A DNA stretch of 12,960 nucleotides from Candidatus Pacearchaeota archaeon (GTDB lineage: Archaea; Nanoarchaeota; Nanoarchaeia; Pacearchaeales; GW2011-AR1). The stretch's first letter is position 1; each line of letters starts with the position of its first letter. The position numbers were made by a program, and so were the translations under genes. The notes beneath the pieces were generated by a model, which saw only the letters and a program-made list of their open reading frames with translations, was not told where the DNA came from and ran no database searches. Below are positions 1-12,960 of this stretch, in pieces. The DNA lies in contig NZER01000246.1 of the NCBI GenBank assembly GCA_002690445.1, positions 1-12,960 of the forward strand, given 5' to 3'.

Positions 1-2256
1 ATCAGTCAATGTTGTAAAATCAGCACTACAAGCAGCCTGACCTAATAAGTCAGCAGCAACAGAGTTAATACAGCTACCACCAACAACAATTAAGTTCTTA
101 GCAGCAACAGATGCAACTTCACTATCTTCAACAGTAACAGCACCCAATTCAGTAGCACTAGCGCTACTTGCAGAACCAGTACTTACCATTATTTCACCAG
201 AGCTCAAGTATACAAGTGGCTCAATAATTGAGTCAGGGATAGTCAATGTCACCTCGGAAGGTGAATCATCTCCATCTACCTCTTCAATCAAAGCACCATA
301 CCTTGTTCTATAAGAGTTCTTGTTGTTGTCTTCAGGGTCACTAATCCACGCTGGGCTCTTTGTAACAGTTACAGTCATATCAGTTGTGTCTGAACCATTA
401 GCAAATGTAGCATAGTAGATAGTTTCTGGAAGTGATAAATCATCGTCATCACGAGCAGTATCATCTACGCTCACGTTAACAATCCAGTTACCTGTAGCCA
501 AAACTAATCCTCCGTCTTCAACACTAAAGTTGTTTGTTAGTGTAGTATTCAAGTCAGTAATGTTAATCAAAGCATTACTTTGTGTTCTTAAATACTGGCT
601 AACCGGAAGACCCGGAGAAGCACCATCAGCATAGTCTGTACTAGTTAAGGAAATTGTACAATCACTTGAAGCACAAGATGTTTCATTTGTGAAAGTGAAA
701 GTACCACCACCAATCTTAAGAGTAACAAGTGTTCCTCCAAGAGCAGGGTCCTTATCCATAGACAATTCCTGATTACCAACACCCAAGATTTCTAAGTCCA
801 ATTTAGGACTAGTAGAAGATGTTTTATCAGCACCCTTATACTTAACAATATACGTCTTAGCATTGTTCCCTGCAGTTACAGGGTCAGCAGTGTTTAGAAT
901 GAAGTAATCATTCTTTGTAATATTGTCAGCACCAGGAGACATAACTAACCTCTTCTCTCGAGTATCACCACCGTGCATACCTGTTGCATTTGAATAAACA
1001 AGAGGTAACTCGGCAACATCTCCAGCTAGATTTGTGAAAGTCAACTTGTACTTTCTGTCAGAACTAACTGCGTCTAATTTAACTTCGTCAGTATTTACTG
1101 CAGCGAAGCCCTTAAACTCGATGTCCCAATTTTGACCAACTAAGACACCTGGCTCATCACCTTCTAATGCGATCTCGTCACTTAGCTTTCCACCAACAGG
1201 AACAAGATATTCATCTTGAGCAGTCATATTAACCACGATTTCTGCAATGGAGATATCCCCACCAGATTCAGTATGGTTAATTGTAACAGCAGCACCTGAA
1301 ATGGAATCTGCATTAACTTCAAGGTCAGCACCATTCTTAAGTACGATCTTATCAGCACCAATCCAGAATGTAGCTTGGTGTAAACCACCAGCAAAGGATT
1401 CATAGTCAATATCTGTAACAGCGATATAATCGTTTGTCCCAGTAATTGGTTCTATCTCACCCTTATCCATTTCATCAATTGGAGTACCATCAACTGTGAA
1501 TTTCACAGCTGAACTTCCTGAAACAACAGAACTAACAGTGTAACCACCAATAGTGATTTCTTCACCACTTGAAATAGTACCCTGTGCAGCTCCACTCATT
1601 AATGTAAGTTCTACACCACCAGTACCATTTGTAGCAGTAGTAATAGTGTATGATTTACCTAATAAAGAGATAGTTTCATCTTCTACATCATCTATTGTTC
1701 CAGATGTTATATCTGAATCCAAAGTTGTTGTAAAGTCAATTACATATCTAGCAATATTCTGTCCATTTGCAATTTTAAAGTAATCGCCAACAACATCAGC
1801 ATCGTCATCTTCCGCATATTCTACTCGAGATGATTCTATATCATGGAAATGTAACTCTTGGTCATATACTGAAGTACCTTTAGAGTTTACAACAGTCCCA
1901 CTCTCTAAAAGAGCGAAATTTGTGTCATCCAGATAAGTTGTAATATTGTTTAAAGATTCTTGAATTTCAAGAGGGTCAGAACTTGTCATTGCTTGCCAAG
2001 CAGTACCAGTAACACTAGCACCTGTGCCTCCACTTGCAGTTTGTGCAGCAAGAGCAGTTGCTAAATCGCTTGCAATATTCGCAGCACCAACAACATCACT
2101 TATTGCAGCATTACTACCATGGACAATAGCTACATTTGCAGCCCCATTTTCAACAAAAGGAGTTGGATATGCAGCAGCAGCAGCAAAACCGATAGTAGAA
2201 CCAATTAAAGCAGCACTTCCTAAAACTGTAATAGCTTTTTGTATGAATTTTTTCAT
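1..2256 (-). CDS. S-layer protein, 3' end cut by the window edge
   Basis: Main surface-lattice protein of the cell envelope, exported by Sec. Reading from the ATG at 2256, the frame stays open for 752 codons to base 1, so the C-terminus is missing. Residues 1-28 form a signal peptide (MKKFIQKA, a hydrophobic core, then AAAA). The mature start YPTPFV and the following VAIVHGSNAAISDVVGAANI match the conserved N-terminal region of archaeal S-layer proteins (S_layer_N family, known from Methanococcales and many DPANN). Near the visible end, NLIVVGGSCINSVAADLLG matches the conserved S_layer_C motif. The middle is Thr/Ser/Asp/Gly-rich beta-type sequence with N-glycosylation sequons. There are two close cysteines (CASSDC) and two more near the end that may form disulfides. 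The start is fixed by an AAAGGAGGTT site. It is probably the most strongly expressed gene here. Identification rests on motifs read by eye. Confidence 0.93.
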   Translation of the reverse strand, partial: MKKFIQKAITVLGSAALIGSTIGFAAAAAYPTPFVENGAANVAIVHGSNAAISDVVGAANIASDLATALAAQTASGGTGASVTGTAWQAMTSSDPLEIQESLNNITTYLDDTNFALLESGTVVNSKGTSVYDQELHFHDIESSRVEYAEDDDADVVGDYFKIANGQNIARYVIDFTTTLDSDITSGTIDDVEDETISLLGKSYTITTATNGTGGVELTLMSGAAQGTISSGEEITIGGYTVSSVVSGSSAVKFTVDGTPIDEMDKGEIEPITGTNDYIAVTDIDYESFAGGLHQATFWIGADKIVLKNGADLEVNADSISGAAVTINHTESGGDISIAEIVVNMTAQDEYLVPVGGKLSDEIALEGDEPGVLVGQNWDIEFKGFAAVNTDEVKLDAVSSDRKYKLTFTNLAGDVAELPLVYSNATGMHGGDTREKRLVMSPGADNITKNDYFILNTADPVTAGNNAKTYIVKYKGADKTSSTSPKLDLEILGVGNQELSMDKDPALGGTLVTLKIGGGTFTFTNETSCASSDCTISLTSTDYADGASPGLPVSQYLRTQSNALINITDLNTTLTNNFSVEDGGLVLATGNWIVNVSVDDTARDDDDLSLPETIYYATFANGSDTTDMTVTVTKSPAWISDPEDNNKNSYRTRYGALIEEVDGDDSPSEVTLTIPDSIIEPLVYLSSGEIMVSTGSASSASATELGAVTVEDSEVASVAAKNLIVVGGSCINSVAADLLGQAACSADFTTLTD

Positions 2257-2732: not shown

Positions 2733-3089
2733 ATGGCAGAAAAAAAGAAAAGCAAGACAAGATATGTGGATATTAATGTAAATAAGGGAGGGTTTGTATC
2801 CAAATTTGTAGGCGGAAAAAAAGCCCACGATTTTTCAGATATAACCTTATTAAGAAAGCTATTAAGCAATGAAAAAGCAAGGATTCTTTATACTTTAAAA
2901 TTCAAAAAACCTCAATCAATTTACAGATTAGCAAAGATTTTGGGCAGAGATTTCAAGTCAGTAAGAGAAGATGTCCAGCTTCTTGTACGATTTGGTTTTG
3001 TAGAATTTCATACATCCAGAACAGGTAAACGAGAAGCACTAACACCCACCTTGTCTGTAGATGAAATAAAACTTGTAATTAATATTTAA
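2733..3089 (+). CDS. Winged-helix transcriptional regulator (COG4190-like)
   Basis: A 118-residue, probably cytoplasmic DNA-binding protein. A basic, likely disordered N-terminus (residues 1-35, MAEKKKSKTR onward) precedes a winged helix at about 38-118. Here LLSNEKARILYTL is helix 1, SIYRLAKILGRDFKSVREDVQLL is the helix-turn-helix, and the segment from GFVEFHTS to the end is the wing. The phrase SIYRLAKILGRDFKSVREDV closely resembles archaeal COG4190 regulators (SIYELAKLLGRD...V..DV..L), many of which sit beside toxin genes. The ATG lies just after a TATA box, so translation is probably leaderless. The only close plus-strand partner is absent. The gene ends 4 bases inside the convergent pilin-like gene, so the two transcripts must overlap. 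It may repress itself through the repeats at 2671-2727, and may also act on the divergent S-layer promoter. The target is unknown. Confidence 0.8.
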   Translation: MAEKKKSKTRYVDINVNKGGFVSKFVGGKKAHDFSDITLLRKLLSNEKARILYTLKFKKPQSIYRLAKILGRDFKSVREDVQLLVRFGFVEFHTSRTGKREALTPTLSVDEIKLVINI

Positions 3090-3589
3090 ACATCATTGCA
3101 CACCCGCAAACGCACCACCAAATCCCCGCCCCCCGCCGCCAGAGGCACACTCGCCCCAGTCACCCCGCCCGTGCAATTTCCCCCAACCACCTTCAAAACA
3201 TCTTCTTCTACATCTGCATCATCCCGGAACAAAATATCAAATTGATAAGCATTAATCACACTCTCACTTCTCATCAAATCACCCATAATGTCAATCAACG
3301 TCTCATTCAAATAATCACAAGCCATCTCATTCAAATTATCGCACCCATCCCCGCCATAACAACTCTTAACTAAATCTTCCACACTATCAAACTGCGGCTC
3401 AAACACAATCGCGCAATCAGTTGTATAATCCAGCACAGCATTCAGCATATTTTCCACCTCAACACTTTGTTTTTCATCTGGCGCCTTTCGCACCGAAATC
3501 ACAATAAAAACCAGCAGCGCAATCACAACAAGCACAACTATCAACACAAACCCTACCATTTCCTGTTGTCCTTTATTTTTTTCACTCAT
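3086..3589 (-). CDS. Pilin-like secreted protein, class III signal peptide
   Basis: A 167-residue protein. The N-terminus MSEKNKGQQEMVGFVLIVVL has the short charged region, KGQ cleavage motif and hydrophobic stretch (about 12-32) of archaeal type IV pilin or archaellin precursors, normally cut by a prepilin peptidase after the Gly. The hydrophobic stretch would form the fibre core or a membrane anchor, and the rest (about 33-167) faces outward. That part has seven cysteines (likely disulfides, for example CYGGDGC), N-glycosylation sequons (NETL, NCTG) and a C-terminal Gly-rich stretch AAGGGDL encoded by runs of G. It is the last gene of the overlapping operon: its ATG lies inside the end of the upstream pilin-like gene (8-base overlap, ATGAGTGA). 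No assembly ATPase or platform gene is in the window, so the appendage type cannot be named. Confidence 0.75.
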   Translation of the reverse strand: MSEKNKGQQEMVGFVLIVVLVVIALLVFIVISVRKAPDEKQSVEVENMLNAVLDYTTDCAIVFEPQFDSVEDLVKSCYGGDGCDNLNEMACDYLNETLIDIMGDLMRSESVINAYQFDILFRDDADVEEDVLKVVGGNCTGGVTGASVPLAAGGGDLVVRLRVCNDV

Positions 3590-4088
3590 CTTTCAAAATC
3601 ACCCCCAAAACCAACTTGCCAATCTCGCATTTATTATAAACATAACCACCTTCCTTCATTTTCCTGCAAATATTCACATAACTTGAAAATTCTTCAGAAC
3701 TTGCCTGTCCAGAATTATAAATTTCCCAGTAATTGCATCCCAAAGCCGGGCACTGCACTTTCCCGCTTTCAGCAAAAGAAGGGTAAATCTTGTAAACTTT
3801 CACAGATGCAACAGGCCAAAAATCACCATACCCCGCCCCCCGCCCCCCAGCTAAAACATCCAGCTTATCCCCATCTAGACACAAGTTTTCCTGCGAATCA
3901 CAGTTCAACTCAGGCATATTAGAAATCACTTCCAAAGACGAAAGCGCCTGTCTTTTTTGCAAATCTTCGTAACTATCTGTAAGAGATTTTGACTGCCAAG
4001 ATATAAAAAAAAGCCCAACAAGAATAAAAAAGAAAAACACAGCTACAATCATAAACGCCATCTGCTGGATTTTTAGCTGTGCTTTCAT
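3582..4088 (-). CDS. Pilin-like membrane-anchored protein
   Basis: A 168-residue protein with an N-terminal hydrophobic segment (about 12-31 of MKAQLKIQQMAFMIVAVFFF...) and an outward domain with four pairs of cysteines, including CDSQENLC and CPALGC, and a Gly-rich tract (LAGGRGAGYG) written in G runs. The frame is open to 4112, but I place the start at the ATG at 4088. That ATG forms an ATGA overlap with the TGA of the dipeptidase gene and gives a short N-terminus like the other pilin-like genes. QLKIQQMAF resembles a class III processing region without the standard KG, so cleavage is uncertain. Order and overlap suggest production in fixed ratio with the two neighbouring surface proteins. 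It could instead be a plain type II membrane-anchored protein. Confidence 0.7.
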   Translation of the reverse strand: MKAQLKIQQMAFMIVAVFFFFILVGLFFISWQSKSLTDSYEDLQKRQALSSLEVISNMPELNCDSQENLCLDGDKLDVLAGGRGAGYGDFWPVASVKVYKIYPSFAESGKVQCPALGCNYWEIYNSGQASSEEFSSYVNICRKMKEGGYVYNKCEIGKLVLGVILKDE

Positions 4089-4639
4089 TTTAGGCATGAC
4101 CAATGCCACCATTCTGGGAGGTAGGGTTTGAATCCTACCTTCCTCATGACTTTTTTTAATAATCTTCTGTTTCTTTTAATCTCTTCTTCTTTTTTAGTCA
4201 ATTTTTTCTTTTTTTCATAATAATTTAAATTATCTTTTTCATTAAAACTTACCCCACCCATTTCAAGCTCTTTTTTCCCTTTCATAATTGTTAGATCCAC
4301 TGCCCCTCCTCCCAGATGACTTGCAGGCCAAAAAGGTCTCTGTTTGAGAATCTTATACCCTCCCGTATATCGAACTAGCATATTATGCCAATTTTTAGGA
4401 TGCTTTCTTTTGAAATCCTTTTCACAGATCTTAATTATCCTTCTTTGGTCTTCAATAGACCTTTTCCCATCCCAAATTTTGAAGTTATTCCCTTCAGGCA
4501 ATAATTCTCTTGCCCTTAACAAAGCCTGCGCAACCGAACTTCTAATGAAAATCTTTTTAGATCTTGCCCAATCATTCCTCTTACGATTGTCAATTACAAA
4601 GCCATGCTTCTTTAAATTTATTAGTCCTTTCATCACCAT
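4085..4639 (-). CDS. VanX-like D-Ala-D-Ala dipeptidase (peptidase M15 family)
   Basis: A 184-residue zinc metallopeptidase of the M15D type, which in bacteria splits D-Ala-D-Ala dipeptide. The family signature is complete: SHLGGGAVD around residues 107-115 (zinc ligands His108 and Asp115) and PEWWHW around 175-180 (catalytic Glu176, zinc ligand His179). DGKRSIEDQR at about 57-66 matches the usual DGYRP..QR segment. No signal peptide or membrane segment is visible, so it should act in the cytoplasm. The frame is open to a GTG at 4648. I choose the ATG at 4639, which is 10 bases after GGGAGG; the ATG at 4633, in a TGATG overlap with the upstream stop, is the alternative. The stop overlaps the next start as ATGA. 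An enzyme of peptidoglycan chemistry is unexpected in an archaeon, so the true substrate may be another dipeptide or a product taken from bacteria. It is less G-rich than the flanking pilin-like genes. Confidence 0.85.
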   Translation of the reverse strand: MVMKGLINLKKHGFVIDNRKRNDWARSKKIFIRSSVAQALLRARELLPEGNNFKIWDGKRSIEDQRRIIKICEKDFKRKHPKNWHNMLVRYTGGYKILKQRPFWPASHLGGGAVDLTIMKGKKELEMGGVSFNEKDNLNYYEKKKKLTKKEEEIKRNRRLLKKVMRKVGFKPYLPEWWHWSCLK

Positions 4640-5649
4640 AACCCGCACACCTCCCTATCTGCCTTAATCTCAACCTGCTTCACAAAATCATTTAACATCA
4701 TTAAATCTTCTGCAGTTGCATTCATAGCCAGCCCGCCAAGCAACCGCAAATCTGCCTTAAGATTAGTATTACATTCTCGTGCATTCATCAAATCTGCTTT
4801 ATCTCCAAATACCTCAGAAATCTTCGCAGTCCGATACATCAGCCTCTTCACATTGCAGTCATAAATATCTTTTTCTGAAAAAATCGCCCCATACATTAAA
4901 CTTCCAACATATTCTAATCTTTCTCCATCTTTCAAAACAAACCCCTCCCCCCACACCCCCGCCCCCCCGCACCCTGAAACACACCCCCCATAAACCACCA
5001 CACCCCTGCCACTGCACCCGCCCGCCCCAAAACAAACCCGCACCTCATCTTCCTCCCCAGTGCAGTTTTCAATTGCAATGTTCGGCACAGCCAGCCCCAA
5101 AATCTCATTTTCAATTTCATCCGGCGTATTAATAAAACAATATTTTTTCTGCGTTAAAAAAATCAAATCAGCAACCTTGTACGGAAATTCAAATGGCTTG
5201 GAAAAAACATAATACTCTTTTCCAGAATTTTGAGGCGAAGAAAAAATATACTTATTATGAACAGAAGTCGCCCCCCCTGCCAGACTCCACTCCTCCCCAA
5301 TCCGCGACCGGGTTGCAACTGAAATCTCGTTTTTCCCAAACTCATCATCATAACAATAATTATTCACCCTTGTTTCTGAACGAAAAATAATTTTCCCAAA
5401 CCGCCCCTCCCCAAAACCTGCCTGCAGCGGGTCAGTAATAATTGAAATCTCCTTTGCCACTTCCGTGTCAGTCTGAAGTCTTTTAGTATCTGCCACCCGC
5501 ACCGCCCCGTAAACAGCTAAAATCAAGATTGCAATCCCCGCGATAATTGCAAAAATCCAGACAAAGTTGAATTCTGCGCGATTTGCTCTTGCACTATCTT
5601 TCATAATTCCTGGCAAGAGTGAATCGCGAGTTACTTTTTTGGTTTTCAT
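4633..5649 (-). CDS. Large membrane-anchored pilin-like protein, Cys- and Gly-rich
   Basis: A 338-residue protein, one N-terminal membrane segment (about 27-48, FVWIFAIIAGIAILILAVYG) after a basic stretch, then a large outward domain. The RAEFNFVWIF start, with an acid just before the hydrophobic core, resembles type IV pilin-like proteins, although no clear cleavage glycine precedes it. At about 200-240 is a Cys/Gly-rich region (CFGAGGCSGRGVVV, GGCVSGCGGAGVWGEG) encoded by long G runs (4942-4974), which may form a disulfide-bonded knot. Several more cysteines follow, and sequons NCTG and NATA occur. The frame opens at 5667, but I choose the ATG at 5649: it makes an ATGA overlap with the upstream TGA and has GGTGAAG before it. 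I do not recognise a named family. It could be a minor or tip subunit of the fibre built from the downstream proteins. Confidence 0.68.
   Translation of the reverse strand: MKTKKVTRDSLLPGIMKDSARANRAEFNFVWIFAIIAGIAILILAVYGAVRVADTKRLQTDTEVAKEISIITDPLQAGFGEGRFGKIIFRSETRVNNYCYDDEFGKNEISVATRSRIGEEWSLAGGATSVHNKYIFSSPQNSGKEYYVFSKPFEFPYKVADLIFLTQKKYCFINTPDEIENEILGLAVPNIAIENCTGEEDEVRVCFGAGGCSGRGVVVYGGCVSGCGGAGVWGEGFVLKDGERLEYVGSLMYGAIFSEKDIYDCNVKRLMYRTAKISEVFGDKADLMNARECNTNLKADLRLLGGLAMNATAEDLMMLNDFVKQVEIKADREVCGLW
4942..4974 (-). other. G-run tract able to form a G-quadruplex, inside the 338-residue gene
   Basis: The coding strand has runs of 3, 7, 5, 6 and 4 G separated by 1-3 bases. This satisfies the usual four-run G-quadruplex rule and contains a slippage-prone run of seven G. 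It encodes the Gly-rich CGGAGVWGEG segment. Similar but looser tracts lie in the two downstream pilin-like genes (3124-3170 and 3831-3848). Confidence 0.7.
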
Positions 5650-6104
5650 TTTTTCTTCACCTTCCAATTTTCAGTCATTCTATTCAAAACAAAAACTTCC
5701 GAAGTCAAATCAGTAGGTATTTTATTTAATAAAGGAATCATTTTTTTATCCATCCATTTATGCATGAGATATTCATTTTTGAACTTCTTTTTTATAATAT
5801 TGCGATGAATAAGCTCATGAAATAATCTTATTAACATAATCTTTGGATTTTTTTCATACCTTATTGTAATTGGATCGCAAAAAACAGAACCCTTGTCAAT
5901 CATAAAAATAGGAATATAATCTTCTTCCCAAGAAATAAATTCCTTACTAATAATCTTCAAAATAGCCCCTATATTTTTTCCGTAGAGTTGTCTGAATATT
6001 TTAGTCTTCTTTTCCAATTTTTTTAAGTTATTCTTATCAAAATCTTTTTGAAAAAGTGTATTATACATCCAAGAATATTCCAATTTAGTCCTCGGTATTT
6101 TCAT
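5646..6104 (-). CDS. HEXXH-motif metalloprotease-like protein (zincin-like)
   Basis: A 152-residue protein with no signal peptide or membrane span, so probably cytoplasmic. The key motif is HELIH at residues 96-100, preceded by a hydrophobic helix (MLIRLF): in zincins the two His bind zinc and the Glu is the general base. A downstream helix holds further candidate ligands (EYLMHKWMDKK, about 111-121), but a third ligand cannot be assigned. The segment before the motif (PIFMIDKGSVFCDPITIRYE) looks like a beta-rich substrate cleft. I do not recognise a named family; SprT-like or minigluzincin-type proteins are the closest in plan. The start is the ATG at 6104, which shares its A with the hepT-like TGA (TGATG); a GTG at 6107 is possible. 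The gene ends in an ATGA overlap with a pilin-like gene. It might process surface-protein precursors or act with the toxin-antitoxin pair upstream; both are inference. Confidence 0.6.
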   Translation of the reverse strand: MKIPRTKLEYSWMYNTLFQKDFDKNNLKKLEKKTKIFRQLYGKNIGAILKIISKEFISWEEDYIPIFMIDKGSVFCDPITIRYEKNPKIMLIRLFHELIHRNIIKKKFKNEYLMHKWMDKKMIPLLNKIPTDLTSEVFVLNRMTENWKVKKK

Positions 6105-6505
6105 CACCCCACCACCCCCAAAAATTTCTTAGTATCAGGAATTAATTCTTCAGTCACAGCGTGAAAAACTTTCTCATCATCAATTTCACCATATTCATGA
6201 GCAATTATATTTCTCATAGATTTAGCATCTTGCAATCTTTCAGATAATTCATGAGAAAGGAGGTTTGAATTCTCCAAAATTTCAAAAGCATGCTTGTCAT
6301 TATCTGGAGATTTTAATTTCTTTTTCTTTATAATCAAAAAAGCCAAATCAACAACAGCCTCAACAATTTTTTCAAAATACCTTTCACAAGCAGCTTTCTT
6401 ATCAAGTTGTTTTTTGTAAGCTTCCAAACTTTCTGGCAAAAATGATTCCAACTCTTCTAAGTAACTATCAATCTCTTTTGTTTTATCACCTACCCTATTT
6501 TCCAT
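6104..6505 (-). CDS. hepT: HepT-like RNase toxin (type VII toxin-antitoxin)
   Basis: A 133-residue all-helical protein of the HepT/DUF86 (HEPN) family. The catalytic and modification motif R-X4-H-X-Y is exact: Arg98, four residues NIIA, His103, Glu, Tyr105 (RNIIAHEY). In characterised systems Arg and His make the RNA-cutting site of a dimer, and the Tyr is AMPylated by the partner nucleotidyltransferase, which silences the toxin. The length is normal for the family. The ATG at 6505 lies 11 bases inside the upstream nucleotidyltransferase gene, the usual antitoxin-first order, and the stop overlaps the next gene as TGATG. Unusually, the pair is not a free-standing module but heads a seven-gene overlapping operon. 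Function is assigned from motif and context. Confidence 0.88.
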   Translation of the reverse strand: MENRVGDKTKEIDSYLEELESFLPESLEAYKKQLDKKAACERYFEKIVEAVVDLAFLIIKKKKLKSPDNDKHAFEILENSNLLSHELSERLQDAKSMRNIIAHEYGEIDDEKVFHAVTEELIPDTKKFLGVVG

Positions 6506-7004
6506 CTTTTTTATATAATACTTTATGGTTTTTTAATATTGACTTTTTGATTTTTTCAGGCAAAACATTGAAAACCTGAATATCCACCTTATCTGGAACT
6601 CTTCCGAAAACCCTTATTCTAAAATTGGCAGCCTCCCTTTTAGTTATCTCCTTAAATAAAACAGCAACATCAACATCAGATCGAACAGTCATCTCATTAG
6701 TAACAATAGAACCAAAAAGCCACACCTCTTTAATTCGTGAAAAAAATTTATCTTCTCTTATTGCTTCTATAACTATTTCAATCAACTTTTTATTCTCAGC
6801 ACCTCGCTTTAACTCAAATTCATTCTCAAACTTATTCACTTCACGAATAAACCTCAACTTCGGCCTTATATCTCTAGAAAGCCGATTTTTTTCAGATTGT
6901 GTAAGACGAATCCCAGATATTTGCTTCTGGATTATAACTAACTCTCGCTTTCCAAAAATCTTTCTTGCTAAAGGACTTTTCTTCAAAAAAATCTTAAATT
7001 CCAT
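6495..7004 (-). CDS. mntA: MntA-like minimal nucleotidyltransferase antitoxin
   Basis: A 169-residue protein. The C-terminal half is a minimal nucleotidyltransferase: WLFGS at 95-99 opens the GS-X10-DXD motif (Gly98, Ser99, Asp110, Asp112 in SDVDVAV), and the likely third catalytic Asp141 lies in KVDIQVF. In MntA-HepT systems this enzyme transfers AMP to the toxin's tyrosine. It is longer than the roughly 100-140 residues of the simplest members because of an N-terminal part (1-80) containing IRLTQSEKNRLSRDIRPKL, a segment I know from archaeal nucleotidyltransferases of this group. The ATG at 7004 follows a TATA box (7045-7052) by about 40 bases. Two copies of a 13-mer cover the TATA box and the expected start site, suggesting repression by the complex. 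The end overlaps hepT by 11 bases. Confidence 0.86.
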   Translation of the reverse strand: MEFKIFLKKSPLARKIFGKRELVIIQKQISGIRLTQSEKNRLSRDIRPKLRFIREVNKFENEFELKRGAENKKLIEIVIEAIREDKFFSRIKEVWLFGSIVTNEMTVRSDVDVAVLFKEITKREAANFRIRVFGRVPDKVDIQVFNVLPEKIKKSILKNHKVLYKKDGK

Positions 7005-7013
7005 TTCTAACCA

Positions 7014-7059
7014 CCATTTAGGTTATAGTAACCCCCATTTAGGTTATTTAAACCTTTCG
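7014..7059 (-). promoter_or_regulatory. Promoter with two operator-like repeats ahead of mntA-hepT
   Basis: The minus strand reads CGAAAGG (BRE-like, 7059-7053) then TTTAAATA (TATA, 7052-7045). The 13-mer ATAACCTAAATGG is present exactly twice, at 7047-7035 (overlapping the TATA box) and 7026-7014 (over the expected start), 21 bases apart, about two helical turns. The layout fits control by a repressor, possibly the toxin-antitoxin complex. This is probably the promoter of the whole 7004-3086 unit. Confidence 0.65.
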
Positions 7060-7065
7060 CCCAAC

Positions 7066-7584
7066 TCACTCAACCACCACAAATTTATCATAAAAACCCT
7101 TTTTCAAAACAAGCCCTCGCGAAACATCAACACAATACGGATTCCGGTTTTCAGTTATCTTTGTAATATTAATATGCTCAATCTTAGAAAACTGCATCTC
7201 ACACGCCTCCCCCGGCGGAATCAAAAAAACATTCGCGTCCTGATATTTGTAAATACTAATCTCACCATAATCATCCAAAACCTCATCTGTCTGGCTAATC
7301 TCCCCAGTTAAATTCCCAAAACAAATTTTCATCACCCCCGAAGGCAAATCCATTTCAAACTCCCTGTTAGATTCCTGCGTCGCCCAAACATCATCAACCC
7401 CCCTCTGCAGCTCATCATAAAACATCCCAACACCTGAACAAGACCCAATATCCAAAAAATATTTAATCGCAACAAACGCAATCACAATAAAAACAATAAT
7501 CAGGAAAATCGCAAATATAATTCCAAACGGCAGCCCCATCGTGTGTTGCGCACTTTTATTGCTTTTACCTAAACCTCTTTTCAT
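7066..7584 (-). CDS. Pilin-like membrane-anchored protein
   Basis: A 172-residue protein with a basic N-terminus (MKRGLGKSNKS), a strong hydrophobic segment (about 18-43, GLPFGIIFAIFLIIVFIVIA onward) and an outward domain with five cysteines and sequons NLTG and NITK. The plan and G-rich style match the pilin-like genes further down. There is no clear KG cleavage site, so it may be a bitopic anchored protein rather than a processed pilin. The ATG at 7584 is about 22-30 bases from a TTTTATAAAA box, so the mRNA should be leaderless. A 61-base gap, holding the promoter of the next unit, separates it from mntA, making it the only pilin-like gene of the group not fused by overlap. I do not know its family. 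Confidence 0.7.
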   Translation of the reverse strand: MKRGLGKSNKSAQHTMGLPFGIIFAIFLIIVFIVIAFVAIKYFLDIGSCSGVGMFYDELQRGVDDVWATQESNREFEMDLPSGVMKICFGNLTGEISQTDEVLDDYGEISIYKYQDANVFLIPPGEACEMQFSKIEHINITKITENRNPYCVDVSRGLVLKKGFYDKFVVVE

Positions 7585-7624: not shown

Positions 7625-8419
7625 CTACCATGTCCATTTTGCGAAGATCCCATAAGTTGCAACTAATTTTCCACTAAAAAACTCAGGACCCCCCAATCTA
7701 ACAGCATTTTCGTGGCGTACCCATTTTTCTTGAGATCCAATCCCTATTTCTCCCCCAATGATCTTTCTAGAAACAATAAAGTTATACTGCGTTGCTTCAT
7801 CTGCTGGAGAAGTATAAAATGAATAACCCTTATCAAGGTCACCTTTAAATTGTTGAGAGGTAAAATCATAAGAAGTTCGTCCATGTAAGTCTACATCATT
7901 CCCCAGTAAATTCTTCCGATCTATTTTCCAGGACCCATCAGTCGCCTCAATACCTGAAGAGCTGAAATCAAAAAATGTTTTCCCCATAGTTTTCTGTCCA
8001 GGTTCATAAGTAAGCCTAGAAGAGTCAGTTCCTTCCGTAATTTCAGAAAGGAATCCTTTTCTATTACTTCTTCCCCCAAGTTCAATTGGATCACCAGAAA
8101 GAATATCACTCTCACTAATTTTAAAACTGCCCCTGTCAGAGGTTGCCATAGTGTCCATTCCAACAAGAGAGTAACTTCCATCCCCGTTAGGTATTACATC
8201 ACCAGCAAAATCAAACCATCCATCTATTTGACCCTCGCCGCTAACTACATCCCCTAAGAGGTCATCATCTATAACATGGATTTCCCTCCCTTCAGGTCGG
8301 ATATTAACTAATTTCTCTTTCCCTGACAATTCAAAGTTCTCTTCTCCAATAATTGTAATTTTACCATCCCCATATAAGATTTGAGTTCCTTCCGACTTTC
8401 CTGGTGTATGGGAGATCAA
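7625..8419 (-). CDS. Beta-rich repeat protein, probably missing its N-terminus
   Basis: The open frame encodes 264 residues from a TTG at 8419; it is open back to 8443 (stop TAA at 8446-8444) with no ATG or GTG near the beginning. The sequence starts inside what looks like a domain, without signal peptide or Shine-Dalgarno site. It is Gly/Asp/Ser-rich and beta-like. A repeated phrase is visible: DDLLGDVVSGEGQIDGWFDF (about 51-70), SDILSGDPIELGGRSNRKGF (104-123) and KNLLGNDVDLHGRTSYDF (169-186), spaced 53 and 65 residues, as in beta-helix or beta-solenoid surface proteins. It ends in FAKWTW. The plus-strand gene that begins at 8427 also lacks a clear start, so this may be the 3' remnant of a larger surface-protein gene cut by a rearrangement. 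If intact, it would need the TTG start. Function unknown. Confidence 0.5.
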   Translation of the reverse strand: MISHTPGKSEGTQILYGDGKITIIGEENFELSGKEKLVNIRPEGREIHVIDDDLLGDVVSGEGQIDGWFDFAGDVIPNGDGSYSLVGMDTMATSDRGSFKISESDILSGDPIELGGRSNRKGFLSEITEGTDSSRLTYEPGQKTMGKTFFDFSSSGIEATDGSWKIDRKNLLGNDVDLHGRTSYDFTSQQFKGDLDKGYSFYTSPADEATQYNFIVSRKIIGGEIGIGSQEKWVRHENAVRLGGPEFFSGKLVATYGIFAKWTW

Positions 8420-9910: not shown

Positions 9911-10531
9911 TTAAACTAAATACTCTGAAATTTTTATCAACCTAACAAAAGGGAACTCTGATTCTATGTCTCTTTTTCTCACGATTATGCTATTTTGGTC
10001 CCGCGTAACGAAATTCACGGACTTTTGGGCTTTTTTGTAGATATGATTTAGAATAGCGAGAATTCTCAAATCTTCAGAATGCAATTCTGGAAGTCTCCTT
10101 AATTTTGTAAGAGAAGAAGAATACTTCTTCAATATTTTTCTCTCTTTGATTTTATTCTCCGGATAAAATTTAGCAGTTTCAACCCAAGTATCTATTGTAA
10201 TTAACCTTTGAATACCCAAATCTATCACTTCCAGCAATTTTTTTATATTTTTAAAATTATTTGATTTTAATTTAAGAAAGGAATAAACATTATCATAACT
10301 ATTATTAAGGTCTACAAGTTCTTGTATTTTATCTGGAGAAATACCCTTTTTTAATTCATGGCTTATTTTCTGAAAATTAATAAGAAGAATTAAACTTTGA
10401 TTTGAAATTTCGTTGTGAAGCGAATACGGTATCGGATCTTGTTGATTAGTGAGAAATTTATTCACCGCCCTCACATATAGGGGGGCATAAATAGAGATTA
10501 TGAAAATATTCGTATCTAAAATATCGACCAT
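9911..10531 (-). CDS. PIN-domain nuclease, possible toxin
   Basis: A 206-residue cytoplasmic protein with the layout of a PIN nuclease: an N-terminal beta strand ending in the acidic residue (VDILDTNIFI, Asp6 and Asn8), a second acid at about Glu41 (LHNEIS), a third at Asp154 (HSEDLRILAIL) and a last one at Asp178 in FVTRDQN. PIN proteins cut single-stranded RNA with Mg2+ and are commonly VapC toxins. This one is about 60-70 residues longer than a typical VapC because of a helical insert between about 50 and 140, so a specialised nuclease is also possible. The ATG at 10531 shares its A with the TAA of the upstream gene (TAATG), so the two are co-translated. The partner is not a recognised antitoxin. 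Confidence 0.72.
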   Translation of the reverse strand: MVDILDTNIFIISIYAPLYVRAVNKFLTNQQDPIPYSLHNEISNQSLILLINFQKISHELKKGISPDKIQELVDLNNSYDNVYSFLKLKSNNFKNIKKLLEVIDLGIQRLITIDTWVETAKFYPENKIKERKILKKYSSSLTKLRRLPELHSEDLRILAILNHIYKKAQKSVNFVTRDQNSIIVRKRDIESEFPFVRLIKISEYLV

Positions 10532-11130
10532 TATACAACCATAAGTTTAGAAAGAGGATTGTAATCTCTCCAAATGGCCTTAATATCCAGCATTGATTCT
10601 TTCAAGAAGTTTTCCTCAATCTCCCCAAGTAAAAATAAGTATGTTTTAAACAATGATTTAGATATCCCCTGCACATTTAAGAAATCCTGTTTTTCTGCAC
10701 TCAAAGTATCCAATTTATTTTTGACTAATTTAAGTAAACGAGAGTTGGCTTCCAATAAAAATAAAGCTTCCCTGAATTCGGTAAAGTTTTCTTTTTCAAG
10801 TAAATCTTTCTTAACTAAATCATCTCTCTCTATCATTGCCTCCATTGATAGACTAAGAACTCCATTAGCCTCTTTTTTATCCATCTTTACAATCGGGCCA
10901 TTAATCCCAGAAGTAATAATCTTTTGCATTTTCTCTAAAAATAATTTCTCCTTTTTTGTTAAGGATTTCATGGATAGAAGATTCTTAATCGCTTCTCGCA
11001 AACTTATTGCCCCTCTTTTCATCCAAAGCCAATGAGGACTATTTCTCAATGGAGAAAACTCAATTTTACTAAATGCATCTCTCACAAATTCGTTATATGC
11101 TGCAGATTGTTTCAAAATTTGTTCTTGCAT
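10531..11130 (-). CDS. Helical protein of unknown function coupled to the PIN gene
   Basis: A 199-residue, predominantly helical, probably cytoplasmic protein. I do not recognise it. It contains several amphipathic helices rich in Leu, Lys and Glu (for example LREAIKNLL, FREALFLLEANSRLLKLV, FKTYLFLLGEIEENFL) and one aromatic motif (PHWLWMKRG, about 32-40). There is no membrane segment and no cysteine. The ATG at 11130 is supported by GGGAG six bases before it and a TATA-like element about 45-53 bases upstream. Its TAA overlaps the PIN start as TAATG. The position, directly before a nuclease in a two-gene unit, is that of an antitoxin, but it is larger than usual VapB proteins and has no visible DNA-binding domain. 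A regulatory or substrate-guiding partner is equally possible. Confidence 0.62.
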   Translation of the reverse strand: MQEQILKQSAAYNEFVRDAFSKIEFSPLRNSPHWLWMKRGAISLREAIKNLLSMKSLTKKEKLFLEKMQKIITSGINGPIVKMDKKEANGVLSLSMEAMIERDDLVKKDLLEKENFTEFREALFLLEANSRLLKLVKNKLDTLSAEKQDFLNVQGISKSLFKTYLFLLGEIEENFLKESMLDIKAIWRDYNPLSKLMVV

Positions 11131-11282: not shown

Positions 11283-11294
11283 CCAAAAAACCCC
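11283..11294 (-). terminator. T-run terminator after the Ig-like protein gene
   Basis: Directly after the stop, the minus strand has GGGG then six T then GG. Short T runs are sufficient terminators in archaea. The following AT-rich stretch to 11131 holds no gene I can support. Confidence 0.35.
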
Positions 11295-12960
11295 TAAAGA
11301 AAATTCCTCGTCGGTCTCACAATAATAGAACAATCAGCCTCCTCATTCTTAAACTGGTCACGGCACTTAATATAATATGTCTTGTCCTCATTCCACTCAG
11401 TCACATGAACAGTTGAATTAGCATACGGCATATCACTTCCCTCAGCAAAAGCAAAGTCGCAATTATCCAAACTATAAGCGCACTCAGAATTCCGCACAGT
11501 TACAATCTTCAGCATTGCATCTTCTTCATAAACCCGCGCAACAACCGGAGCATTAGTATCAATTTCCAAATTAAATGTAGTTGACTCAATAGCCGCATTC
11601 CCGCCCGAATCAACACACTTGTAATGATAAGTATGGCTCCCATCCCCTAAATCCAGCCTCTGCGTGTGAATCCCGTCTTCCTTATCTGTATCATAAAACA
11701 TTATATAATCACCCTCATCCCCGCTGTCAGAATAATAGCAAATCGCCTTCCCGCTGTCGCACCCAAACATCGTCTCAGTATACAATTCAACAGGAGCAGG
11801 ATTAACAGACCCGTAAATTGTCCCGTTCGGCTGAAGATTCTTAATCATCAAATCACTGCTCCCCCTCAAACTAAATTCATAACTCTGCTTATTCTCATTC
11901 CGTTCATTCTCAGCCTTCCCTGGCTGGTCCTTGCACCGAACATAAAACTTTGTATCATCCCGCGCCACCCCAGTCAAAGTTGTCTTGCAAGTATACAACT
12001 GCAGCGCATTCAACTCATAAATCTGATTAGTGCAAGCCATTGAATTATCCATGCTGTCATAATCCTGATCAACCGGGCTCCAACTGCACTCAACCGGCTC
12101 ATTCACATAAAACTCAACTTCAGCAGAATCAGTATCAGCAGCAACACACCCGCCGTTGTTAATCGAAGTTGCCTTAATCTGCGGCGCAGTACTGTCCGGC
12201 GTCGCGTCTACGCAAAATCCAATAGAATAATCTGCCTCATTAGTGTTCCCTAATTTATCCATACACCTAATAAACAAAGTCATGTCCTTATCATTTTCCA
12301 AAATAATAGAACCATTCCCAAATGCATCTGGACCAGGCAACAACAACTGCTCAGTATGGTTATACAAATAAAGATTAACCCCGCCCATCCAGTGCGTCAT
12401 CTCTTCAAAACTTGTCTTGTGCTCAATATCAATCTTACACTGAGCTGGCTCATCAGTATCAACCCCAAACTTCAGCGGAGTAAACGCTTTCACACACCCA
12501 TCAGAAACTTCAGGATTAAGAATTTTCAAACCAGCATTAGGCGGATTCGGCCTCACATTACTATATTCATAACCAACAGTCAGCTCATTCTTATTCGGCG
12601 TAATAATCGGAGGGTTCGTATCCCGCGGATTCAAATTAATACACTGCTTCTTATCTGTTCCCGGATTCACCAAATCACACCCCTGCCCTAAACTCTTACA
12701 TCGATATTCAGAACACGGCAAATCAGGATCATTGCACTCCTCGCACTTATTCCCCCCACCCGGCGCCTGCCACCCCAGACACTTAAACTGAACAACTTCA
12801 GTACTCTCATCCTTTGCTAACAAGTGATAAACCAGCAAGGCCACCCCAACTGTTACAGCTAGATTTACCAGCCCTGCATTTGCTCCTAACCATGATTGTT
12901 GTGTAAGTGAAGCTACCTTCCCATTTTGAAAAGTTGCAGTTACAATCCTACCCTTAGCAG
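11294..12960 (-). CDS. Large membrane-anchored protein with four Ig-like modules, 5' end cut by the window edge
   Basis: The frame is open to the right edge, so the visible 555 residues are the C-terminal part; a GTG at 12844 is not the true start. The first visible residues (KGRIVTATFQNGKVASL) precede a membrane segment (LVNLAVTVGVALLVYHLL), after which the chain should lie outside the cell. A short Cys-rich linker follows (CEECNDPDLPCSEYRC). Four modules of about 90-140 residues come next, each ending in a strand with a shared motif: LFIRCMDKLGN, FYVRCKDQPGK, YHYKCVDSGGN and YYIKCRDQFKN. Modules start with phrases such as DTNPPIITP, DSTAPQI and DTNAPVV, as in bacterial and archaeal Ig-like folds, and each pairs its conserved Cys with an earlier one (AQCKI, VECSW, AICYYS, SECAYS). 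This suggests an adhesin or stalk. Its G-rich style matches the pilin-like genes. Confidence 0.75.
   Translation of the reverse strand, partial: AKGRIVTATFQNGKVASLTQQSWLGANAGLVNLAVTVGVALLVYHLLAKDESTEVVQFKCLGWQAPGGGNKCEECNDPDLPCSEYRCKSLGQGCDLVNPGTDKKQCINLNPRDTNPPIITPNKNELTVGYEYSNVRPNPPNAGLKILNPEVSDGCVKAFTPLKFGVDTDEPAQCKIDIEHKTSFEEMTHWMGGVNLYLYNHTEQLLLPGPDAFGNGSIILENDKDMTLFIRCMDKLGNTNEADYSIGFCVDATPDSTAPQIKATSINNGGCVAADTDSAEVEFYVNEPVECSWSPVDQDYDSMDNSMACTNQIYELNALQLYTCKTTLTGVARDDTKFYVRCKDQPGKAENERNENKQSYEFSLRGSSDLMIKNLQPNGTIYGSVNPAPVELYTETMFGCDSGKAICYYSDSGDEGDYIMFYDTDKEDGIHTQRLDLGDGSHTYHYKCVDSGGNAAIESTTFNLEIDTNAPVVARVYEEDAMLKIVTVRNSECAYSLDNCDFAFAEGSDMPYANSTVHVTEWNEDKTYYIKCRDQFKNEEADCSIIVRPTRNFL

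Follow-up and report, generated by a model that had tools for sequence, protein, structure and literature searches.

The locus described here raises the question whether genes for a toxin-antitoxin pair, two metallopeptidase-like enzymes and pilin-like proteins, which overlap one after the other, encode one joint device or came together by separate events. It lies on a stretch of 12,960 nucleotides (nt) from a Candidatus Pacearchaeota archaeon (contig NZER01000246.1), in the following called the window. An initial annotation had read seven minus-strand open reading frames (ORFs), namely mntA, hepT, the gene of a HEXXH protein, the gene of an anchored protein (anch), a peptidase gene, pilB and pilC, as one operon with full translational coupling. 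The ORF coordinates confirm these seven genes and their order (Table 1); the core operon, however, starts one gene earlier than had been assumed, with pilA. It is likely in our view that a four-gene surface-pilin operon, pilA-anch-pilB-pilC, took up two separate inserts, including a mobile MntA-HepT-like module with its own promoter-operator. Repeated gene capture appears to explain the combination better than a single designed machine.

Table 1. Genes and candidate control sites of the window.
Feature	Position	Strand	Basis
pilC, pilin-like core gene	3086..3589	-	ORF; order comparison; 4-nt overlap with the convergent regulator
pilB, pilin-like core gene	3582..4088	-	order comparison across loci
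M15 (VanX-like) peptidase, insert in the anch-pilB slot	4085..4633	-	Pfam, NCBIfam and PDB match
anch, pilin-like core protein of 338 amino acids (aa)	4633..5649	-	database relatives; structure model
HEXXH protein, 152 aa, zincin-like motif HELIH	5646..6104	-	alignment; structure model
hepT-like HEPN RNase toxin, RX4HXY = RNIIAHEY	6104..6505	-	Pfam, NCBIfam and PDB match
mntA-like nucleotidyltransferase antitoxin, GSX10DXD present	6495..7004	-	Pfam, NCBIfam; motif in translation
Operator-like palindrome 2, TAACCTAAATGGTGGTTA	7008..7025	-	two copies in 16/31 mntA relatives
Operator-like palindrome 1, TAACCTAAATGGGGGTTA	7029..7046	-	motif in 21/31 mntA relatives; shuffle expectation 0.1
TATA-like box TTTAAATA	7045..7052	-	48 nt upstream of the mntA start
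pilA, pilin-like core gene outside the interval of the initial annotation	7066..7584	-	homologue order across loci
Winged helix-turn-helix (wHTH) regulator, HVO_A0114 family, frequent convergent neighbour	2733..3089	+	profile match in 120/148 loci
Large surface protein, C-terminal part, frequent neighbour upstream of pilA	11294..12958	-	profile match in 97/148 loci
S-layer protein (S_layer_C), frequent downstream neighbour	1..2256	-	profile match in 111/148 loci

The toxin-antitoxin module and its leader

The coupling that had been claimed for the whole block stops upstream of mntA, where pilA and mntA are separated by a 61-nt gap holding mntA's own conserved candidate promoter-operator. In the 109 relatives without an insert of at least 250 nt, the distance between pilA and anch has a median of 1 nt (nearest ATG). 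The leader of the window contains a TATA-like box and two 18-bp palindromes of the form TAACC-N8-GGTTA. Upstream of the mntA relatives listed in Table 1 (one locus is counted twice, L028 being L257) the motif was scored as T(A)ACC-N6-9-GGTTA, and several of those lacking it have another palindrome on inspection. A different motif, GGACA-N1-4-TGT, precedes 14 of 32 members of the L162 type (expectation 0.1; L079 is also counted as L224), a pair that is the commonest other occupant of the pilA-anch slot.

All eight co-directional nucleotidyltransferase modules in this slot (window, L008, L141, L162, L073, L079, L083 and L111) begin 44-87 nt past the pilA stop, and a TATA-like box is present in every one of their leaders, with 1.5 of 8 expected after shuffling. 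The leaders of other inserts are widely spread and many are coupled; leader length separates the two classes moderately (p 0.016). At the 3' end, the last gene of the module shares 4 nt with the following core gene in the window, L162 and L083 and 11 nt in L008, and lies 1-27 nt from the core start in L073, L079 and L141; no second ORF is listed after the nucleotidyltransferase of L111. The earlier statement that the toxin genes are joined to fibre genes is borne out at this side, as the module either runs into the following pilin gene or ends close to it. Because the 61-nt gap combines a TATA-like box with conserved palindromes, mntA-hepT most likely represents a self-contained, autoregulated module, as far as can be judged from sequence.

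The assignment of the pair is based on several kinds of matches. MntA was recognized by Pfam Polbeta (E 3e-14, 53.4 bits, cut-off 26.9), and the motif GSX10DXD is read in its translation as GSIVTNEMTVRSDVD. HepT scored 100.3 bits with NCBIfam HepT (cut-off 60) and E 1.5e-27 with Pfam HepT-like, its RX4HXY motif was likewise read in the translation, and its PDB matches are HEPN toxins exclusively (6 sequences); both motifs are used as defined in excerpts of PMC7641770. The best PADLOC match of the pair is PDC-S09 (3e-8). Like known type VII HepT/MntA systems, the antitoxin gene precedes and overlaps the toxin gene, the two motifs are present, and the candidate promoter contains palindromes as in Shewanella. 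According to excerpts of PMC4621449, two palindromes are present in the promoter of the Shewanella pair; the MNT antitoxin binds and represses this promoter, and motility is reduced by the pair. Unlike these systems, the module of the window is embedded in, and coupled to, a surface operon, its tandem TAACC-N8-GGTTA abuts an archaeal TATA-like box, and its MntA remains below the NCBIfam cut-off, which is why we call the pair MntA-HepT-like.

We propose that a mobile module of the MntA-HepT-like (type VII) kind, equipped with a TATA box and a tandem operator of its own, entered between pilA and anch, followed by the HEXXH gene as a hitch-hiker, and that the M15 peptidase gene is a single hitch-hiker between anch and pilB. 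MntA, or MntA together with HepT, would bind the two palindromes and repress the module. HepT would be an RNase toxin of the ordinary sort and MntA the antidote that transfers AMP, most likely serving defence or self-maintenance and not as part of the fibre. With every 3' end overlapping the start codon that follows, anch, M15, pilB and pilC would be co-transcribed from the module promoter, by read-through from the pilA promoter, or both, and the toxin promoter could plausibly drive the fibre genes downstream of it. Owing to the overlap, a clean removal of the module would also come at the expense of a core surface gene, and this might help to retain the module.

A conserved surface operon

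The core genes were followed through relatives of anch, for which 376 database relatives were found at E 0.001. A set of 200 genomes of the order, reached via the relative L001, contained anch in 177 genomes, nearly always as a single match. Among 27 named loci, taken from records titled Pacearchaeota, Nanoarchaeota or archaeon, 25 have the full order pilA-anch-pilB-pilC; the exceptions are L011, where pilB-pilC moved upstream, and L020, where the contig begins inside anch. In the larger survey described below, pilA and anch were both assigned in 133 of 142 loci. The neighbourhood is also recurrent, with the large surface protein gene upstream and the convergent wHTH gene and the S-layer gene downstream. 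Ribosomal L2 is on the same contig as the locus, about 27-55 kb away, in at least 20 genomes for which the two positions are listed; the distance is 71 kb in G008 and 131 kb in G040. From this nearness on one contig we infer that the operon itself is a conserved chromosomal core of Pacearchaeota-like archaea. An origin of the locus as mobile island or virus was considered and rejected, as none of 13 pattern matches in viral contigs was confirmed; the M15 protein had no match in phage records at E 1e-5.

The HEXXH, anch and pilin-like proteins gave no Pfam match over the cut-off. The structure model of anch has a long N-terminal helix (residues 29-71), with the signal motif judged by eye only, and the comparison of this model to the PDB by Foldseek returned nothing under E 0.001.

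Overlaps and insertions

Inside the block the overlaps reported earlier were found at most junctions. The genes mntA and hepT share 11 nt, hepT and the HEXXH gene 1 nt (TGATG at 6104; an alternative GTG start at 6107 would make 4), the HEXXH gene and anch 4 nt (ATGA, 5649-5646), M15 and pilB 4 nt (ATGA, 4088-4085), and pilB and pilC 8 nt (3589-3582). The overlap of about 7 nt given for anch and M15 applies to a start at ATG 4639 and is reduced to 1 nt (TGATG) with ATG 4633, which is probably the true start because the two closest relatives begin with MKGL and MKKQ.

To see such junctions in context, 120 further regions were fetched, core-gene profiles were built, and gaps were measured in 142 loci (window included, 6 duplicates dropped). 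A gap of at least 250 nt was counted as an insert, and the number of loci per slot varies with missing or unassigned genes. Lineage-specific inserts occur at pilA-anch in 24 of 133 loci, at anch-pilB in 13 of 139 (one extra locus has an odd order) and at pilB-pilC in 9 of 135; the pilA-anch gaps of L142 and L146 are without a convincing co-directional gene. The cargo comprises nucleotidyltransferases, HicA, Fic, SLFN_AlbA, low-molecular-weight phosphatases and DUF3800 at pilA-anch, GNAT, ParA-like, weakly DUF6886-like, AP_endonuc_2 and NYN proteins besides the M15 peptidase of the window at anch-pilB, and GNAT, HAD, 23S_rRNA_IVP and PemK at pilB-pilC. In total 63 cargo ORFs are listed, of which 40 plus the four of the window were family-scanned; antisense orientation was seen in 7, and a few ORFs are perhaps not genes.

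Most relatives thus possess the fibres without the rest, which speaks against a joint action of toxin, peptidases and fibres in a single contact or host-interaction device. A device of this kind was among the functions first suggested for the seven genes, and the tight overlaps would suit it. M15 peptidases cut cell-wall peptides in bacteria, which would fit it as well. However, 109 of 133 loci are insert-free at pilA-anch, close relatives of mntA, HEXXH and M15 lie far away or on other contigs, except for one mntA (L008) and one weak HEXXH relative (L127), and no secretion signal was noticed by eye, no predictor being used, in HepT, MntA, HEXXH or M15. We therefore regard one joint device as very improbable.

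Another possibility is neutral hitch-hiking, meaning that operons of small genomes gather coupled genes anywhere and that the toxin module is one of them. Two controls bear on it. In the ribosomal S10 cluster (20 loci, L184-L203), gaps of at least 250 nt occur at 19 of 169 junction observations, and in T2SSF loci (also 20) at 6 of 66 junctions. The pilin slots taken together, with 46 of 407, show the same insertion rate as the ribosomal control (p 1.0), and an insertion hot spot by rate was hence rejected; the pilA-anch slot taken singly gives p 0.10 in this comparison. The ribosomal families were taken from one reference locus, with gene pairs at most 150 nt apart there, the inserts are smaller than those of the pilin operon, and one of the 19 gaps (L187) contains an antisense ORF only. 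Ribosomal inserts are mostly coupled by 1-4 nt overlaps as well, and elsewhere HEXXH and M15 relatives are found in coupling with unrelated genes, which in some cases are GNAT or HAD. Gene insertion with overlaps is ordinary in these archaea. Since short overlaps are common in the order, ribosomal inserts included, a tight overlap is weak evidence for joint function. The kind of cargo differs, however: by eye, DnaQ-like exonucleases and orphan proteins with a length of about 100 aa make up most of the control cargo, which also includes one VapB/MazF-like pair. Nucleotidyltransferases occupy 9 of 24 pilA-anch inserts and none of the 22 inserts in the two slots that follow (Fisher p 0.0012, kinship ignored); the profile search described below had no match in those two slots either. 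Moreover, neutral hitch-hiking would not explain why all co-directional modules have the 44-87-nt leader with its TATA-like box. Hence, it appears an unlikely account of the module, and we retain the view of a core operon with captured inserts.

Direct repeats were rejected as a general insertion footprint. In L073 alone, where 17 nt of the anch start recur at the far end of the insert, the flanking repeat exceeds all 570 mismatched pairs, while the other 40 of 41 junctions, including the two of the window, do not.

Nucleotidyltransferases at the pilA-anch slot

The survey of gene neighbourhoods did not find toxin and fibre genes always apart, because L008 carries mntA-hepT in the same slot and seven other loci carry nucleotidyltransferases there, in L174 in antisense orientation. 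A HepT or HEPN-like gene, in some cases weakly supported, follows 7 of the 9 slot nucleotidyltransferases. The nine belong to at least four different subfamilies, and eight match Pfam nucleotidyltransferase models directly; the L079 protein is 88% identical to that of L162.

A profile search of the 142 loci, with a profile trained partly on slot members, gave 30 matches. Of these, 9 are in the slot and 1 is downstream of anch; 19 were found upstream of pilA, 16 of them on the strand of the operon, and 1 more upstream of anch in a locus without assigned pilA. Expectations were derived from the density of PF18765 (1338 matches in 180 genomes, mean genome size estimated) and amount to 0.27 for the slot (27 kb), 5.2 for the region upstream of pilA and 6.2 downstream; in 314 kb of control loci the profile had 0 matches with 3.1 expected. 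Antitoxin-type nucleotidyltransferases, most of them with a HEPN-like partner, exceed their genome-wide density in and just upstream of the operon, and the association of toxin genes with the fibre operon noted at the outset was right in this respect. In L119, L124, L134 and L106 a pair stands directly before pilA, with its second ORF ending over the pilA start or at most 11 nt from it.

These findings could mean that the operon, above all the pilA-anch junction and the region upstream, is a preferred and meaningful home of nucleotidyltransferase-HEPN modules, whose own repressor puts the fibre genes under toxin-antitoxin control and ties the surface state to stress or infection. Such slot-specific capture would refine the proposed history and does not exclude it; we regard it as possible in a tentative sense. 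It is in line with the enrichment in the slot and upstream, with the pairs directly before pilA, with the diversity of subfamilies, and with the L162 subfamily, which occupies the same slot though its members are more alike (65-70%) than the L2 proteins (55%). On the other side, selection for any steadily expressed operon could explain the same pattern, the co-directional nucleotidyltransferase state changes just 6 times on the anch tree, and the enrichment depends on the partly slot-trained profile and the estimated genome size. Vertical inheritance at uneven rates is possible, too, as shown by L073 and L111 below.

Relatedness and possible transfer of the modules

INDEPENDENCE and transfer were judged from pairwise identities, trees, the approximately unbiased (AU) test and ribosomal L2 as comparison. 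In 199 genomes, 36 full or near-full length relatives of the window mntA were found (39-63% identity), of which one, in L008, is beside anch; as these are draft genomes, elsewhere stands for another contig in the case of the others, and a few of them have no listed anch position. Window and L008 are 40% identical in MntA and 46.5% in HepT, the window MntA reaching up to 63% with copies elsewhere, and in the mntA tree the window is placed among other copies and L008 apart with moderate support. A single ancient insertion for both is disfavoured. Their independent arrival appears supported by the identities, the missing motif of L008 and the moderately supported tree.

For the L162 type, the pairs of L162 and L079 are 88/86% identical (core proteins 57-64%, L2 75%) and those of L162 and L073 65.5/65% (core proteins 34-43%, L2 54.7%). 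The nucleotidyltransferases of L162 and L111, in the same slot, share 70.5% at an L2 identity of 55.3%. The four slot copies, those of L162, L079, L073 and L111, cluster with modest support (82/80). This suggests a transfer of the L162-type pair between distant lineages into the same address. The nucleotidyltransferases of L073 and L111, at 63%, are less conserved than L2 (72%), which counts against transfer, and vertical inheritance is disfavoured, not refuted. That nucleotidyltransferase-HEPN modules in general are exchanged horizontally among distant Pacearchaeota and insert at one and the same junction in an address-specific manner, as the 17-nt repeat of L073 might suggest, each installing its own operator before anch, seems quite unlikely at present. 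If true, an autorepressed RNase toxin module would have captured the operon and linked the output of surface fibres to toxin control.

Two other cargo genes were compared in passing. In the pilB-pilC slot of L073 and L148, a GNAT acetyltransferase is 87% identical (core proteins 57-63%, L2 77%), a non-toxin gene with the same identity pattern as the L162-type nucleotidyltransferase, and in the anch-pilB slot of L141 and L104 a ParA/MinD-like ATPase is 78% identical (core proteins 45-63%).

Several observations weigh against the proposed capture of a self-regulated module. The palindrome motif is absent before 10 of 31 mntA relatives, among them L008, and long leaders also occur in other kinds of inserts (L164, L064, L090). 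A tree that unites the mntA genes of the window and L008 in one clade was not rejected by the AU test (p 0.126). MntA reached 49.6 of the 60 bits needed in NCBIfam, a weak HEXXH relative stands directly before pilA in L127, and the core promoter could still drive all genes.

The HEXXH protein and the M15 peptidase

In the HEXXH protein, H96, E97 and H100 are invariant in all 12 aligned sequences. Its structure model has a predicted local distance difference test (pLDDT) score of 93.6, and Foldseek found no fold in the PDB under E 0.001. Relatives occur in 16 of 199 genomes, none in the pilA-anch slot. The protein as a fixed partner of mntA-hepT was rejected, because six relatives (L289-L294) have no nucleotidyltransferase or hepT match within about 1.5 kb on each side. 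In L292 a relative is coupled to a GNAT gene and one for a YHGS-type protein, by eye like the cargo of the pilin operon.

The peptidase matched Peptidase_M15 with E 3.4e-11 (43.7 bits, cut-off 27), and its active-site residues His, Asp, Glu and His are complete in the translation. What we take to be the metal-site pattern of the family, SHxxGxAxD and ExxH, is read in the window sequence and is shared with VanX/M15 D-Ala-D-Ala dipeptidases, as is the sole PDB match, 1r44 (1.5e-7). Unlike VanX, the protein stays far below the VanX equivalog cut-off, with 43.2 of 320 bits. The family names Polbeta, HepT-like and Peptidase_M15 were adequate; the peptidase is by its sequence an M15 enzyme, not VanX. 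M15 relatives were detected in 7 of 199 genomes, none in the anch-pilB slot. The best two (64% and 57%) are on contigs without a listed anch, and one is coupled to a HAD-like gene that by eye resembles the HAD cargo of L162 and L083.

Known systems and significance

Besides type VII systems, the candidate defence system PDC-M05, a nucleotidyltransferase with a HEPN protein, is comparable. The L162-type pair matches PDC-M05A at 8e-21 and, weakly, PDC-M05B at 6e-5, and the L141 pair matches them at 2e-12 and 1e-4, respectively; the window carries a MntA-HepT-like pair instead. PDC-M05 is archaea-enriched according to excerpts of PMC12988326. For DPANN archaea, excerpts of PMC6393860 report diverse pilins in islands and an MNT-HEPN fusion in house-keeping surroundings, and propose preferential attachment; the operon, slots and carried operator of the window are not described in these excerpts. 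In the literature searched, with subscription papers and preprints outside its scope, no description of this operon or operator was found. The claim that no system of this composition has been described is consistent with this for the exact set of genes, though that set is a mosaic.

The point of interest lies in repeated nucleotidyltransferase-HEPN modules with their own putative operator in a surface operon. With them it can be tested how streamlined genomes acquire and retain toxin-antitoxin modules, in this view through an imported promoter and a module end joined to a core gene. Furthermore, the data draw attention to a surface operon of DPANN archaea that is order-wide and uncharacterised, define a candidate archaeal HepT/MntA operator from sequence comparison, and indicate that gene overlap in these genomes is poor evidence of shared function.

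Neighbouring genes

Between the large surface protein and pilA, the window holds two minus-strand genes at 9911-11130 (199 and 206 aa) with 1 nt in common. Both proteins are without Pfam match over the cut-off, and the 206-aa protein is also without PADLOC match; by eye we take the latter, which starts with MVDILDTNIFI, to be PIN-like, and the pair may be a further toxin-antitoxin pair. At 7625-8419, a 264-aa ORF resembles part of a 461-aa gene of L012 (E 6e-23), which is located there between the large surface protein and pilA. Finally, a 674-677-aa protein is encoded antisense between pilC and the wHTH gene in L020 (2057-4081) and L026 (10185-12218), and has a C-terminal alpha/beta hydrolase domain in L020.

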